Positions 2,956 to 16,829 of a stretch of DNA of 40,426 nt are shown piece after piece. Position 1 is the stretch's first letter. Each line of letters begins with the position of its first letter. The position numbers were made by a program, and so were the translations under genes. The notes under the pieces are model-generated. The model saw only the letters and a program-made list of their open reading frames with translations. It did no database searches and was not told the DNA's origin. The stretch spans positions 1 to 40,426 of the IMG/VR virus record IMGVR_UViG_3300021079_000018, one strand, 5' to 3'. This stretch comes from a virus.

Positions 2956-3410
2956 ACCTGCGTTGCTTCCGTTGCCTGTTCTGTATCTGTTAGACTGCTT
3001 GTAAGGTCGATGTTTAGGCTGATGCTGTTAGTGGTGCTTTGTATCTGCTGTATTGCCCTGCCGTGTATTTTATCGTGAATATATTTTGCCGTGTCTACTG
3101 CTATTTCACGTTTGCGAGTATTGTTCTCTGAACCCCAATCGTTGATAGTATTTATAAGAACGTTTTCTACCATATTGTTATACTTTGATAACTCTGTGAT
3201 TATGATAGGTTTTGCGAGGTTTTCCGTTGCTATATTGCGAGCAGATGCGTAAGTCGGAGGCTTACCGTCTTTACCATAGGTTTTTAATACTGCTTGCGTG
3301 GCTGATTGCTTTGGATTGTTTACTATTTGATCCACGAAAGCCCTTTGTTTACTAGTAAGAGTTTTCGGTTTAATAGGAGTGAGAGGCTTGATCATAAATA
3401 CATTATACAT
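2952..3410 (-). CDS. terS: Terminase small subunit
   Basis: Recognises packaging-site DNA and loads the large subunit. The 152-residue product has the typical N-terminal signature of the XtmA/Terminase_2 type: LTSKQRAFVDQIV, then SATQAVLKTYG, then YASARNIATENLAKP, corresponding to the helix-turn-helix and the conserved tail that follows. The C terminus is serine/threonine-rich and disordered-looking, as expected for the terL-interacting segment. The first ATG is at 3410; a second in-frame ATG at 3395 gives MIKPLTP. Neither has a Shine-Dalgarno sequence, and TATAAT boxes sit just upstream, so a leaderless or near-leaderless message is possible. It is divergent from the early plus-strand operon. 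Confidence 0.85.
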   Translation of the reverse strand: MYNVFMIKPLTPIKPKTLTSKQRAFVDQIVNNPKQSATQAVLKTYGKDGKPPTYASARNIATENLAKPIIITELSKYNNMVENVLINTINDWGSENNTRKREIAVDTAKYIHDKIHGRAIQQIQSTTNSISLNIDLTSSLTDTEQATEATQV

Positions 3411-7098: not shown

Positions 7099-7317
7099 AT
7101 GAGTAAAACCGAAGACCGAAAAAGCAAAGCAATTTTTATAAACTTAACTGATGAAGAAGGCAGTAAACTTTACATAAAGTTAAACATACACCGAGTAGGA
7201 CTAGATATAACTTGGAAAGAATTTATGCTGTCTAGCCTAGGCAACTTCGTAGCAGAAACTGATACAGAGTTAGCCGATCAGATAATTCAATACATTGACA
7301 AAAAACAGGTAGCGTAG
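7099..7317 (+). CDS. Unknown small early protein
   Basis: A 72-residue protein starting one base after the previous stop. It has a basic N terminus (KTEDRKSKA), a beta-like segment (AIFINLTDEEGSKLYIKLN) and a C-terminal helix (ELADQIIQYIDKKQ). Nothing identifies a family. It is the last gene before the long gene-free structured region. Confidence 0.7.
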   Translation: MSKTEDRKSKAIFINLTDEEGSKLYIKLNIHRVGLDITWKEFMLSSLGNFVAETDTELADQIIQYIDKKQVA

Positions 7318-7320
7318 TAG

Positions 7321-7745
7321 ATTGTAGACAACTATTTGTATTGCGAAAATATAAATAGCCAGACAAAGTAAAAGACACCGTATCGTGGTGTCAGACGTGT
7401 ATTGCGATACACCAATTGTAGCGTAGATACATTATCTTGTCAATCCCTAAATAACTATTGGTGTTGTACAAGCACCGCAAGCATAGATTCTATGCCGACA
7501 ACAAAGATGTAAGCATTAAGTACAGACACAAATCTAGGCTCTGTTTACCCCCGCAACCTAGTCCCTCGCCTGTACTGAATAATAAAATAGTTTATCTATC
7601 ACGCAATCCCTAATACGAGGGAAATGGGGGTCTATTGGTTATAAATAAAAACTACCCCAAAAGAGATAACTAACAGGAAAGCTCTTGGTGGTAGGGGTAG
7701 TTATATATAGCTCCTAGCTACAACTGGAGGGAAAAGCTAAGAGCT
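7321..7745 (+). ncRNA. Candidate large structured noncoding RNA
   Basis: The stretch 7318-7843 holds no convincing gene but many complementary segments. Visible stems on the plus strand: GACACC/GGTGTC (7374/7387); GTGTAT-TGCG-ATACAC (7397-7412), which competes with ACACCAAT/ATTGGTGT (7409/7457); GCATAG-ATT-CTATGC (7481-7495); AGTACAG/CTGTACT (7519/7570) enclosing CTAGG/CCTAG (7534/7557). ACCCCC in that loop (7547) matches GGGGGT (7626), and TCCCTCG (7562) matches CGAGGGA (7616), giving apparent pseudoknots. Then AACTACCCC/GGGGTAGTT (7650/7694) encloses AAGAG/CTCTT, and AGCTCCTAGCT/AGCTAAGAGCT (7709/7735) follows. The last two loops expose AACAGGAAAG and ACTGGAGGG. I see no clear own promoter or intrinsic terminator. 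Size and complexity recall the ornate large RNAs of phages (GOLLD, ROOL), without claiming homology. The rest of the stretch (7746-7843) holds early promoter 3 and the leader of the next gene. Confidence 0.55.
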
Positions 7746-7781
7746 GTGTATAAGTATAGCAATAATTATGTTAGTTTACCA

Positions 7782-7810
7782 TTGACATATTATGCTATCA
7801 AGAGTATAGT
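7782..7810 (+). promoter_or_regulatory. Early promoter 3
   Basis: TTGACA (7782-7787), 17-base spacer, TATAGT (7805-7810). The spacer contains TATGCTATCA, also seen in promoter 2. The leader carries ACTAACTGGAGG before the ATG at 7844. It drives the recombination operon. Confidence 0.8.
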
Positions 7811-7843
7811 TAAAAGGTAATAAACTAACTGGAGGTTACAATT

Positions 7844-8122
7844 ATGAAAAAGAATAAAAAACTAACGGAGTTACTTGAATTAGCTAGTTTTCATATTAGT
7901 TACTGGGAGGGAGAGGGTGTTGGGCAGTACATAGAATACGCTGTAGATCACAAAGACTACAAAAGCCTAGAGCAGTACCTAAAAGAAAGTGCCAGAACAA
8001 TGTTTGATCTAGAATATAATCCTGATCCTATTGTAATTTCAGAAGATAGACTAGACTTGATTGGCAAAGATATATTCCCTAACGCTATCTGGATTGATCA
8101 AAGTGGAAGAGCACCGTTTTGA
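7844..8122 (+). CDS. Unknown protein, first gene of recombination operon
   Basis: A 92-residue protein behind a strong CTGGAGG ribosome site. Basic N terminus (KKNKK), then helical segments (LTELLELASFHI, YKSLEQYLKESARTMF) and a beta-like C terminus (PIVISEDRLDLIGKDIFP). No recognised domain. Its stop overlaps the TTG start of the nuclease gene, so the two are probably translated together. Confidence 0.8.
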   Translation: MKKNKKLTELLELASFHISYWEGEGVGQYIEYAVDHKDYKSLEQYLKESARTMFDLEYNPDPIVISEDRLDLIGKDIFPNAIWIDQSGRAPF

Positions 8123-8919
8123 GTGATTTATACAAAACAGGCGTTAGACAACTTATAGACGACTACCTAATAGATGAGTCTAAGAAAAAAAGAGACTACG
8201 GTAAATACTGGAGTGCTAGCTCTGCAGGGTACTGTATAAGAAGAAATATCTTTGAGAGGTTAAACGTACCACATACATCAGAAAACCCCCGACAACAGCG
8301 TGTATTTAGCGCAGGACACATTTTTCACACTTGGATACAAGACATAACTAAAAAAGCAGGCATATCTATTGCTAGTGAAGTAGAGCTACAAGACGAAGAC
8401 TTAATGGTGCGTGGGCATTTTGATGATCTGATACTGGTAGATGACCAACTTATTCTTTACGACTACAAAACAGTAAACAGCCGTAGTTTTATGTGGGCAA
8501 AGAAGAACGGCAACGCTATGAGCCACTTCCACCGCTTACAGCTTGGAACTTATATGTATATGCTTAGACAATACCTTGAGCAAAAAAATATGACCGAAGA
8601 CGGTGTAAAGATATTAAAGCGTATAGACCGCCATAACTATTTACTCAATAGCCTTACAGAAGCCCGCATACTAAAGATTGAAAAAGAGAACTTAATGATG
8701 ATGGAACAACATCTACTCTGGGACAAAGAACTAGAAACAGATGTTTTGGCTTATTGGACCAAACTAAACAAAGCGTGGAAGTCTAAAAAGCTACCAGAGT
8801 GTACTTGTGCGGACTTTGAGGGTGGTTTTATGGCTAAAGAACTATACAACCCATTTTTCTTTAATAACGAGCCCTGCTCAATAAATTGGTATCTAAAATG
8901 GAAAAAGGAAACTAAATGA
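8119..8919 (+). CDS. Cas4/RecB-like PD-(D/E)XK nuclease
   Basis: A 266-residue exonuclease-type protein, probably used for phage recombination or end processing. It has the full RecB-family motif set: histidine in GHIFHTW (H70), VRGHFDDLIL (Asp 102-103), the catalytic D-x-K in LYDYKT (D115, K117), and motif QLGTYMYML (Q141, Y145). A lone Cys (C39, GYCIRR) before the core and three late cysteines (C228, C230, C253) follow the Cas4/AddB plan in which one N-terminal and three C-terminal cysteines hold a 4Fe-4S cluster, although CTC spacing is unusual. The start is TTG, overlapping the upstream stop. SSB-like and NinG-like genes follow, completing a recombination module. Confidence 0.88.
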   Translation: MSDLYKTGVRQLIDDYLIDESKKKRDYGKYWSASSAGYCIRRNIFERLNVPHTSENPRQQRVFSAGHIFHTWIQDITKKAGISIASEVELQDEDLMVRGHFDDLILVDDQLILYDYKTVNSRSFMWAKKNGNAMSHFHRLQLGTYMYMLRQYLEQKNMTEDGVKILKRIDRHNYLLNSLTEARILKIEKENLMMMEQHLLWDKELETDVLAYWTKLNKAWKSKKLPECTCADFEGGFMAKELYNPFFFNNEPCSINWYLKWKKETK

Positions 8920-9245
8920 AACTTACAGAGCAAGTAGAGAACATTTTGAAGTATAGCAAAGCTTCTCGGAACTCGGACACAGAACTTACTCTTATTTATA
9001 TGGAAAAGTATGGTATTGTTTTGACAGAAGAACAGAAAGAGTTATACAGGTCAATGCCTAGCACGGACACAATAACTAGGATTAGGCGTAAACTACAAGA
9101 GCAGGGAAAGTACGAAGCCGATGAAGCAGTAAACGAATTCAGGTATCAGAAATTTAAAGACATAAGAAACAACATTACATTTATAGAGGACTCGGAACAA
9201 ATTTTAATAAGTCAAGGTTATAAAATAGCCCCTTGGGGCAGTTAG
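8916..9245 (+). CDS. Conserved phage protein of unknown function
   Basis: A 109-residue, helical, basic protein with the pattern ILKYSKASRNSDTELTLIYMEKYG...TITRIRRKLQEQGKY. I recognise this arrangement (ARNSD, then I-T-R-x-R-R-K-x-Q-E) from small proteins beside replication and recombination genes in phages of Gram-positive bacteria, but know no established activity. The basic helix suggests nucleic-acid binding. It overlaps both neighbours: ATGA with the nuclease upstream. Confidence 0.8.
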   Translation: MKLTEQVENILKYSKASRNSDTELTLIYMEKYGIVLTEEQKELYRSMPSTDTITRIRRKLQEQGKYEADEAVNEFRYQKFKDIRNNITFIEDSEQILISQGYKIAPWGS

Positions 9246-9253
9246 GAAACAAT

Positions 9254-9796
9254 ATGAGCATTTACAAAACATTTAAGCCAGCAGGTTCAGACGGAGGTCT
9301 ATACCTAAAAATACAAGACGGTGAAAGCGTAAAGATACGCATAGCGTCAGAGCCAGCGTTGTACACGCAGGAGTTTAATAACGATGGAGAAACGACTGTA
9401 TCTACAAAGTTTGCTTGGATAGTATGGAACAGGAACGAAAAGAAAGCTCAAGTCTATAGTGGCGGTAAGTCTATTTTTAATCAAATAGCTGACTTGTTTG
9501 ATGAGTGGGGAGAGCCGACTACTTTTGATCTAACTATTAAGCGTACAGGTGCTATGTTAGAAACACGCTACTCAGTTACCCCAGCACCTAAAAGCGTTGA
9601 TTTAACTATTGACGAGCAAAAAGACTGCAACAGCATAGACCTACTGAAAGCAACCAAAGGTTATTGGTTGAAAGACTTTGACCAGAACGGCAATCGTGTC
9701 CAAGAGAACGCTATACCAGAAGACCAAGTTTACGAAACAGAAGAAGACCTAGCACACGCAGTAAAAGATATGTTTTTTGAAACAGACGATAAATAA
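9254..9796 (+). CDS. Single-stranded DNA-binding-like protein
   Basis: A 180-residue protein starting at the ATG at 9254, five bases after TTAGGAAAC; an upstream extension to 9233 would lie within the previous gene. It has a predicted beta-rich core (GGLYLKIQDGESVKIRIASE, KFAWIVWNRNEKKAQVYSGG) and a strongly acidic tail (PEDQVYETEEDLAHAVKDMF...ETDDK), as in phage single-stranded DNA-binding proteins of the gp32/T7 gp2.5 kind. Aromatic residues in the core could stack on DNA. Its place between the nuclease and NinG-like genes supports a recombination or replication role. The assignment rests on pattern and context. Confidence 0.65.
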   Translation: MSIYKTFKPAGSDGGLYLKIQDGESVKIRIASEPALYTQEFNNDGETTVSTKFAWIVWNRNEKKAQVYSGGKSIFNQIADLFDEWGEPTTFDLTIKRTGAMLETRYSVTPAPKSVDLTIDEQKDCNSIDLLKATKGYWLKDFDQNGNRVQENAIPEDQVYETEEDLAHAVKDMFFETDDK

Positions 9797-9801
9797 CTTT
9801 T

Positions 9802-9969
9802 ATGCAAGCATTTTTTAATCTATTAGCAGTTATTGGAACATTTGGTACACTAATGATGGGATTAGCAATATACAATGATTATCAAGAAGTTAAAGACAAG
9901 CAAGAACAAAAGCACAAAAGCAAAGCCAACAGTAGCAAAGTTAAAAAAGCTGGCAGACGCAGAGTTTAG
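9802..9969 (+). CDS. Possible small membrane protein with basic tail
   Basis: A 55-residue frame with an N-terminal hydrophobic span (FFNLLAVIGTFGTLMMGLAI) and a highly basic tail (KHKSKANSSKVKKAGRRR). It overlaps the NinG-like gene by 95 bases in another frame, and the basic tail is read over that gene's lysine-rich start. It has no clear ribosome site. The alternative is that only its first part is used to load ribosomes onto the downstream gene. Confidence 0.4.
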   Translation: MQAFFNLLAVIGTFGTLMMGLAIYNDYQEVKDKQEQKHKSKANSSKVKKAGRRRV

Positions 9970-10312
9970 TAAATACATTCGATTGAGAGACTCCAAAAAT
10001 GGTTTAGCGGAGTGTATTACTTGTGGAGTAAAAAAGCCAATATCTCAGATACAAAATGGGCACTTTGTAAGCCGTAGAGTCAGTTTGCTGCGATATGATG
10101 AAGAGAACTGCAACGCCCAGTGTGTCGGTTGCAATATGTTTAAGCACGGAGACCTCTTTACTTATGCCCAGAACCTTGACCTAAAGTACGGAGACGGAAC
10201 AGCTAAAAAACTACACTACCAGAGATTTACTACCCACAAGTTTACTGCTGACGAATTAAATCAAGTAATACACGACGCAAGAGAAGCTATAAAGTTCTTG
10301 ACAAAAACATAA
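9875..10312 (+). CDS. ninG: NinG-like recombination protein (HNH/zinc)
   Basis: A 145-residue protein of the lambda NinG (Rap) type, which aids recombination by acting on branched DNA. The family signature is present: a zinc-binding pair in ECITCG (C47, C50), NGHFVSRR (H63), then a second cluster ENCNAQCVGCNMFKHGD (C79, C83, C86, H91) typical of its HNH-like fold. The lysine-rich N terminus suits DNA binding. The first ATG (9875) lies within the preceding small frame and has a poor ribosome site, so initiation by coupling is likely. Early promoter 4 starts inside its last codons. Confidence 0.85.
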   Translation: MIIKKLKTSKNKSTKAKPTVAKLKKLADAEFSKYIRLRDSKNGLAECITCGVKKPISQIQNGHFVSRRVSLLRYDEENCNAQCVGCNMFKHGDLFTYAQNLDLKYGDGTAKKLHYQRFTTHKFTADELNQVIHDAREAIKFLTKT

Positions 10313-15720: not shown

Positions 15721-15957
15721 TTATTTAATACCTTGTGTAATTATGTAGATTGTGAGGGCTGTTATAACGCTACCTGCAAAAGCTGACATTGTGTGCGATA
15801 GTAACCAGCGTTTCTTAAACTCATTGTATTCTACTTTAGTTACAAATAGGCTTGTCTGTATGTCTAGTTTTTCTTCTATGCGTCCAACACCTTCCATAAC
15901 ACTTTTCATTTGTGTTTGCAGGACTGCAATTTCGGCTGATTCTGTTTTAGTTGCCAT
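15721..15957 (-). CDS. XhlA-like membrane-anchored coiled-coil protein
   Basis: A 78-residue protein with an N-terminal coiled coil (VLQTQMKSVMEGVGRIEEKLD) and a C-terminal membrane span (HTMSAFAGSVITALTIYIIT) with basic residues before it, the plan of haemolysin XhlA-type proteins that cooperate with holins in phages of Gram-positive hosts. It lies directly ahead of the endolysin and starts on a TAATG overlap with the last fibre gene. Confidence 0.75.
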   Translation of the reverse strand: MATKTESAEIAVLQTQMKSVMEGVGRIEEKLDIQTSLFVTKVEYNEFKKRWLLSHTMSAFAGSVITALTIYIITQGIK

Positions 15958-16829
15958 TATGTTTGACTCACTAGGAAGCCTGTGAAAGTATTATTTGCTG
16001 CACTAGAAATACTTAAGGGTAGTGTGGCTTGTGCGATAACAGTTATGTAATCTGACGCAGCTAACTGCAGCATACAACTTGCAGTAACACCCGCACCAGT
16101 TACACCAGCATACATGTTTACTGCAGACACTCCACGATTTATAATAGTACCATTTTTAGCAAATGATATTCCAGTGTCTTGATTAACACTAGCTGTCGTA
16201 AATAACAAATTAGCATTAAACTGATAAAATCCAGCTACTGGTGCAGTGTATCTACCTTTATTAGTAGTAACATCAAAGTTGTTATTAGTATCAAATAATT
16301 CTGTATCAAATTGAATAACACCCAGCAAACCAGGTGTATGTGCAGCAGCTCTATATGCACTAAACTTATAAGGATTAGATATAGCAGTGGTATTGACTGC
16401 TAGGCTAGCAATTTTAGAAGAAGTTACTACATTATTAGCTAAAACTGCAGCATTATCTACTGCACCAGCTTTTAGTGTCCCGTCTTGGTCGTGGGATACT
16501 GCTAAACCTTTACTTATCATTGAAATATGAGTAGCAGTAGCAAAGTCTACAACTACTACACCAGCATTGTGCACTTGATTACTTCCAGCCGTCCAAACTA
16601 CACTAGTTATTTGTGATCCGCTAATATCAACTACACCAGTAAAAGTTTGTTTGCCTGATACACTTGTAGGTTCTATAACAAAAACTACAACCTCACCATT
16701 TGCGTAGCCAGCTAAAGAAGCTAATTCTACTGTAACAGCCCCAGAATTAGTAGAACTAGAAGTAGTAGTGGCGAATCCATTCTCTGCAGAAGGAAAGTGA
16801 TTTACGACCGAGTTTACTGATGTACTCAT
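15957..16829 (-). CDS. Receptor-binding fibre with C1q-like tip (paralogue 3)
   Basis: A 290-residue fibre protein. Residues 1-125 repeat the anchor domain of the two preceding genes (STSVNSVVNHFPSAENGF, GEVVVFVIEPTS, THISMISKGLAVSHDQDGT). A short linker (VVTSSKIASLAVN) leads to a C-terminal C1q/TNF-like jelly roll (FDTELFDTNNNFDV, RYTAPVAGFYQFNANLLF, NGTIINRG, ending FTGFLVSQT), a trimerising domain used at phage fibre tips. It is the last of three tandem paralogues and is coupled to its neighbours by TAATG overlaps. Confidence 0.85.
   Translation of the reverse strand: MSTSVNSVVNHFPSAENGFATTTSSSTNSGAVTVELASLAGYANGEVVVFVIEPTSVSGKQTFTGVVDISGSQITSVVWTAGSNQVHNAGVVVVDFATATHISMISKGLAVSHDQDGTLKAGAVDNAAVLANNVVTSSKIASLAVNTTAISNPYKFSAYRAAAHTPGLLGVIQFDTELFDTNNNFDVTTNKGRYTAPVAGFYQFNANLLFTTASVNQDTGISFAKNGTIINRGVSAVNMYAGVTGAGVTASCMLQLAASDYITVIAQATLPLSISSAANNTFTGFLVSQT

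Follow-up and report, generated by a model that had tools for sequence, protein, structure and literature searches.

The CI RNA of phage P4 and the c4 RNA of phages P1 and P7 are small phage RNAs that control a leader RNA by short complementary segments, and they are read from the same strand as the leader that they target. In plasmid ColE1, RNAI and RNAII provide an antisense control of the replication primer, in which specificity is set by pairing (PMC5415839). The par (Fst) locus of plasmid pAD1 has convergent promoters, direct repeats that are read in opposite directions and are poorly conserved between systems, and a target with a 5′ stem-loop (PMC7472228). As is proposed for the locus described here, c4 RNA is a small phage RNA that acts on a leader via short complementarity (PMC12197685). 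The ornate RNAs ROOL and GOLLD are phage-encoded and pseudoknotted, and some members are found near tRNA genes (PMC12286853).

The locus lies in an uncultured phage, represented by an IMG/VR virus record of 40,426 bases (hereafter, the window). Terminase is found at one end of the window and portal at the other, as expected for a circularly permuted phage genome. The early genes that follow the locus (8119-10312, plus strand) encode a Cas4-like nuclease, an SSB-like protein and a NinG/Rap-like nuclease, and a late-region gene (15957-16829, minus strand) encodes a protein with a C-terminal C1q domain. A preliminary description had pointed to a gene-free gap of 526 bases, and there is indeed no plausible gene in 7318-7843: the sole ORF of at least 50 aa is a 51-aa TTG frame at 7458. 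No reading frame is conserved across the gap in relatives, and a protein-coding reading was rejected on that ground. The plus strand of the gap out-folds all 100 dinucleotide shuffles (z −4.5), and the minus strand reaches z −3.3. The same description took the gap for one large structured noncoding RNA. The structure stood, as compensatory changes preserve two helices and a pseudoknot without any conserved frame, but the single RNA did not, as the first ~120 nt contain an antisense RNA gene, embedded in the opposite strand, and the duplicated target of that RNA. The sequence thus read probably encodes two RNAs that face each other, a long folded RNA (the plus RNA) and an antisense RNA of ~40 bases.

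The plus RNA is best read as belonging to a class of structured phage RNAs that is new and absent from Rfam. Nothing in 7200-7900 matched Rfam at gathering score, and there were only chance-level matches up to E = 10. The link to GOLLD- or ROOL-type RNAs that had been suggested, with a Gram-positive host as an assumption, did not survive this check, since neither family has a covariance-model match in 7200-7900 or in the relatives. Every other Rfam family was discarded for want of a match, as was a tRNA or tmRNA, of which there is none in the window.

As in ColE1, the leader of a longer, structured noncoding RNA would harbour the gene of a short antisense RNA, here judged by promoter and terminator sequence only, and this short RNA is predicted to bind the 5′ stem-loop of its target with self-specificity in silico (22/23). 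The differences are that this locus is in a phage, with a duplicated target and another core, and that the priming role is a proposal. ColE1 RNAI is about 108 nt long, compared with ~40 nt for the antisense RNA here, and a search for ColE1-type homology gave no RNAI match in Rfam and no match in PLSDB. The convergent promoters and oppositely read direct repeats of pAD1 par are both found here. However, the shared bidirectional terminator is not, the T-run being on the minus strand only; nor is there a toxin frame, as no small hydrophobic one recurs, and the target is a pseudoknotted noncoding RNA. Unlike P4 CI and c4, the small RNA is on the opposite strand and has its own predicted promoter. 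Compared to ROOL and GOLLD, this equally phage-encoded and pseudoknotted RNA has a much smaller core and an embedded antisense gene.

The predicted promoter of the plus RNA, P+ (7295-7323, plus strand), consists of TTGACA (7295-7300), 17 bases and TAGATT (7318-7323), with two mismatches to the consensus. A P+-like promoter with at most four mismatches is present just upstream of a stem-loop, SL1, in 21 of 23 modules, compared to 18% of random stretches, and the distance from the end of the −10 box to the anchored SL1 start is 7-11 nt in most of them. Judged by its promoter, the plus RNA should start at ~7330, directly at SL1 (7332-7358, plus strand), its predicted 5′-terminal stem-loop, with an 11-bp stem and a z of −4.6. 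SL1 stems of the CTATTT..AAATAG type are found in many of the 23 modules. SL1 carries the direct repeat DR1, TGTATTGCGA (7337-7346, plus strand), of which DR2 (7398-7407, plus strand) is an exact 10-nt copy. DR1 is the predicted trans target of the antisense RNA, while DR2 is the cis target within the antisense stretch. Other modules also carry a repeat pair, mostly with different sequences. The repeat of DR1 and DR2 was absent from the preliminary description and is more telling than the one noted there, CAATCCCTAA, both copies of which were located, at 7441 and 7604. The complementary segments listed in that description are likewise present, including CTAGG/CCTAG, ACCCCC/GGGGGT and TCCCTCG/CGAGGGA. 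A closing helix between ATCTTGTC (7434) and GACAACAAAGAT (7497) fared less well: it is probably incidental, overlapping the minus-strand −35 box TTGACA (7443-7438), and it was dropped as a conserved structure, as it was not found kept in contigs L018 or L068.

The antisense RNA gene sits within this leader. Its predicted promoter, P− (7415-7443, minus strand), is made from that TTGACA, 17 bases and TACAAT (7420-7415), with one mismatch to the consensus; a similar promoter with at most three mismatches is found in 21 of the 23 modules and in 19% of random stretches. The predicted RNA of ~39 nt (7370-7408, minus strand), delineated by the composite scan described below, consists of the complement of the direct repeat followed by a terminator hairpin, GACACC/GGTGTC (7374-7392, minus strand), and a T-run that corresponds to the plus-strand AAAA at 7370-7373. 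The T-run is on the minus strand only. Other modules also have a GC hairpin and TTTT, with compensatory differences. The layout of P−, ~20 nt of sequence, GC hairpin and TTTT is thus that of a complete ~40-nt RNA gene inside the leader. The 5′ segment of the antisense RNA is complementary both to DR2, in cis, and to DR1 in SL1. Duplication of the target would let the antisense RNA act on SL1 although its own stretch does not overlap that stem-loop. In L104, L108, L126 and L020, a second copy of the SL1 arm CTATTTG adjoins the antisense promoter at its −35 box (CTATTTGTCAA). It is possible that an opened SL1 could re-pair its 3′ arm there, which would make a two-state switch.

Relatives were gathered through the large terminase subunit (TerL) and by pattern scans of IMG/VR. 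TerL retrieved 35 related contigs as a single query and 69 as an alignment. A profile search with the gap found L018 at E = 4.7e-10 and, in the larger set, L068 at 5.5e-15. A search for the core motif, a hairpin loop with CUCUG and CAAC that pairs with a strand after GGGWAA, returned L019, L032, L018, L068 and the window, with few spurious matches in the collected sequence. L065 was added by cross-search, and L067, L106, L105, L119 and a minimal form in L049 by reading the modules. In all, the module of two promoters, SL1, direct repeat and terminator is present in 23 contigs, the window and 22 other phage fragments. When a strict composite scan required promoter, terminator and downstream repeat together, nine modules emerged among the relatives, compared to none in the reversed control or in any of three sets of shuffles, and a looser one found 17, compared to two in the reversed control and 0, 1 and 2 in the shuffles. 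Scanning IMG/VR for SL1, A-run and promoter, with no requirement for a repeat, gave 31 stretches: three already known, eight new complete modules and a chance-like rest. The repeat is present in each of the eight, in some with one mismatch.

Other searches added little. A looser search of the records without a module yielded one doubtful candidate only; a core-pattern scan of IMG/VR found one known contig and one chance match inside a methyltransferase gene, and a scan with the class A pattern gave no contigs beyond those already found. The neighbouring ORF (7844-8122) had no relatives when used as a query, and the Cas4-like ORF had one contig. GTDB genomes scanned with TerL held distant relatives only and pointed to no host. 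INPHARED and PLSDB gave no useful match. The closest GenBank phage by TerL (MW202497, 37%) has no such module, and a helicase is annotated in it.

Hardly any two phages share a repeat sequence, yet the two copies agree within each phage. When duplex energies were calculated for antisense 5′ segments against all SL1 regions, the phage’s own SL1 was best in 22 of 23 cases (mean −18.9 vs. −6.0 kcal/mol), for 23 antisense sequences that were cut by hand, with 15 of the modules chosen partly for having a repeat. The preference for the own SL1 is therefore partly expected, as many modules were found through their repeat. In L105 and L119, which come from one metagenome and have near-identical modules, both copies of the repeat and both strands of pseudoknot PK1 have changed together. 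By analogy with plasmid incompatibility or phage immunity, matched copies that diverge freely between phages are the mark of self-recognition.

The core of the plus RNA (7519-7631, plus strand) is a double pseudoknot. Helix Pa is formed by AGTACAG (7519-7525) and CTGTACT (7570-7576) and encloses hairpin Pb (7534-7561), whose CTAGG (7534-7538) and CCTAG (7557-7561) arms close a loop with the CUCUG and CAAC motifs. The loop also holds the 5′ strand of PK1, ACCCCC (7547-7552), which pairs with GGGGGT (7626-7631), followed by CTATTG. A further pairing, PK2, is found in class A members only and joins TCCCTCG (7562-7568), after Pb, to CGAGGGA (7616-7622). MAFFT did not align the long loops correctly, and blocks placed by hand were used to count the helices. 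Blocks were picked for pairing, so that full pairing is partly by construction and the compensatory variety is the informative part of the counts: Pa is paired in 53 of 56 cells over eight sequences, with compensatory change in six of seven columns; Pb in 60/60 cells over 12 sequences, with such change in four of five columns; and PK1 in 66/66 cells over 11 sequences, with eight different 5′ strands. These counts were reached by 0 of 2000 partner shuffles. Covariation in related phages, which had been put forward as the check to make, is thus found for Pa, Pb and PK1. PK2 is weakly supported, with 23 of 24 cells paired in the four class A members, but the shuffles were not beaten.

PK1 is ACCCCC/GGGGGT in the window and L065, GCGCCC/GGGCGC in L018, GACCCC/GGGGTC in L068, GAGGGC/GCCCTC in L067, CACCCC/GGGGTG in L106, GCCACC/GGTGGC in L019, L032 and L105, AGCGCC/GGCGCT in L119 and GCGGTC/GACCGC in L049. 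The cleanest case is that of L105 and L119, a two-sided change between identical flanks. PK1 could be either an intramolecular pseudoknot or a pairing between two molecules. The covarying helices include six G-U and no A-C pairs, and the structure was therefore assigned to the plus strand. A core segment, ACCCCCGCAACCTAGTCCC (window 7547-7567), is 85-95% identical over 19-31 nt to a region ~0.5 kb after terL in L027, L028, L030, L037 and others, a similarity that may come from chance or from history.

Between leader and core is the middle domain of class A (7465-7513, plus strand), with hairpins GGTGTTGTACAAGCACC and GCATAGATTCTATGC and the motif ACAAAGATGTA. This domain is recognisable in L018, L068, L106 and L126, and ACAAAGAYRTA also occurs in L029. 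Past the core, the window has a terminator-like hairpin at 7650-7702 (AACTACCCC/GGGGTAGTT) with minus-strand T-runs after it, and a similar hairpin (AACTCCCC/GGGGAGTT), again followed by minus-strand T-runs, is found downstream of the core in L106. Such a terminator-like hairpin would protect the core against antisense transcripts reading through into it. A promoter-like sequence for the next gene (7782-7810, plus strand), read as TTGACA (7782-7787), 17 bases and TATAGT (7805-7810), would make the plus RNA a separate unit.

The sequence and genes 3′ of the plus RNA vary between phages, and so does its 3′ domain, which is tRNA-like in L091, a long inverted repeat in L087 and not recognised in L020. 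Because of this difference, the plus RNAs may not all share one function. In L091 (10690-10950, plus strand), the plus RNA runs into tRNA-Leu-like halves (GTGGCGGAACAGGTAGACGC ... GCGAGGTGCAAATCCTCGCCCCCTC) with ~180 nt between them, for which ARAGORN and Rfam made no call. The split halves may be an intron-bearing tRNA, a tmRNA-like RNA or a mimic. The closing motif GGCAGYAGTGAGGG/CCCTCTCTCATGCTT, seen by eye, is common to this region and to L126 (1-395, minus strand) and defines a second class of 3′ domain. Further 3′ structures are present in L070, L071, L084 and L087. At approximately 3318-3382 (plus strand) in L087, a near-perfect inverted repeat (TAGTAGACCGAACCTGTAGTTCG ... CGAACTACAGGTTCGGTCTACTA) comes after the antisense module. 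L066, L067 and L068, which are more distant relatives (TerL 48%), carry tRNA arrays of 13-17 genes by ARAGORN and about 20 by Rfam. The arrays adjoin the structured RNA in L067 and L068; the window and most of the other records have no such array.

Leaving aside any role in replication, we consider it reasonably probable that the locus is an antisense (countertranscribed-RNA) control circuit acting on a structured noncoding RNA. P+ would make the noncoding RNA, with SL1 first and the double-pseudoknot core in its 3′ part, while P−, inside the leader, would make the ~40-nt antisense RNA, which would stop just before SL1. The 5′ segment of the antisense RNA would then capture the plus RNA in trans, during or after its synthesis, through DR1 in the structure that comes first, and the pairing would open SL1 and block the folding or working of the downstream core. 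As both RNAs would rise with gene copies, the circuit could measure copy number, and a phage-specific repeat would confine its action to self, in the manner of phage immunity or of incompatibility between plasmids. The comparison supports the arrangement of two promoters, the agreement of the repeat copies, the fit of small RNA to SL1 and the covarying core; we infer transcription, the direction of the effect and the target process.

The leading guess, a tentative one drawn from ColE1 RNAII, which is processed into the replication primer, is that the plus RNA serves as a primer or licence for the replication of the phage DNA. Most module phages have no recognised helicase or polymerase, and control of replication or incompatibility is for that reason the leading inference. 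The search for replication genes covered DnaB-type helicase, SF2 helicase and DNA polymerase A. The last of these was found in 0 of 24 records, SF2 helicase in only one, which is without a clear module, and DnaB-type helicase in one module phage, G008; in G001, the DnaB match falls on a frame of 248 aa whose sequence is RecA-like. The window matched neither helicase nor DNA polymerase A. Against a replication role, G008 has both the module and a DnaB-like gene, and the near-complete genomes G002, G011 and G013 have neither module nor helicase. GC skew, used as an origin test, showed no consistent sign and did not mark the locus as an origin.

It is possible, if doubtful, that the circuit is an immunity or decision switch, in which a temperate or carrier-state phage would owe its immunity to the antisense RNA. 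An incoming copy that shares the repeat would have its structured regulatory RNA silenced, in the way of P4 CI or P1 c4 RNA, which confer superinfection immunity. Repeats that match within a phage and differ between phages, even between two related phages of one sample, are what such a switch would lead one to find, but no gene lies consistently 3′ of the plus RNA, and neither integrase nor repressor was recognised among the subset of window proteins scanned. The diversified self-recognition code would be left unexplained if the plus RNA were instead a structural RNA present in abundance, of the ROOL or GOLLD kind, with the antisense RNA only setting the timing. It would perhaps form oligomers via PK1, a homo-oligomeric nanocage being one mark of ROOL and GOLLD. 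Such a structural role is rather unlikely, even though the RNA is phage-encoded and pseudoknotted, lies beside tRNA arrays in L067 and L068 and has in PK1 a helix that could form between molecules: the core is only about 110 nt, the window has no tRNA and Rfam has no match.

Proximity to terminase genes in L018, L029 and L032 would suit a DNA-level element, with repeats and hairpins serving as sites for protein binding, for packaging or as an origin, and with the fit between the RNAs as a by-product. The covarying helices contain G-U pairs and lack A-C pairs, a sign of RNA, the repeat sequences vary between phages, the spacing from promoter to SL1 is nearly fixed and the terminase genes of the window are several kb off, all of which make such an element improbable. 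The convergent promoters, poorly conserved direct repeats and 5′ stem-loop are also those of par systems (PMC7472228), in which case the plus RNA would encode a toxin and the antisense RNA would act as the antitoxin. A type I toxin-antitoxin of this kind is very improbable, as 14 of the 23 modules have no Shine–Dalgarno-led ORF of at least 18 aa starting in the plus RNA, no hydrophobic peptide recurs and the terminator serves the antisense RNA only.

Antisense-counted control of an RNA is best known from plasmids, and the circuit favoured here would place it in uncultured phages as a compact, repeatedly diversified module. A more speculative view is that the phages of a widespread lineage both initiate and restrain the replication of their DNA by RNA alone, with a structured primer or licensing RNA, a ~40-nt antisense counter, a duplicated code that diversifies into incompatibility groups and host enzymes for the rest. 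If control of replication or immunity is indeed the function of the module, it would provide about 20 naturally occurring antisense-target pairs of ~40 nt that look orthogonal, and would show how phages without recognisable replication machinery regulate themselves.
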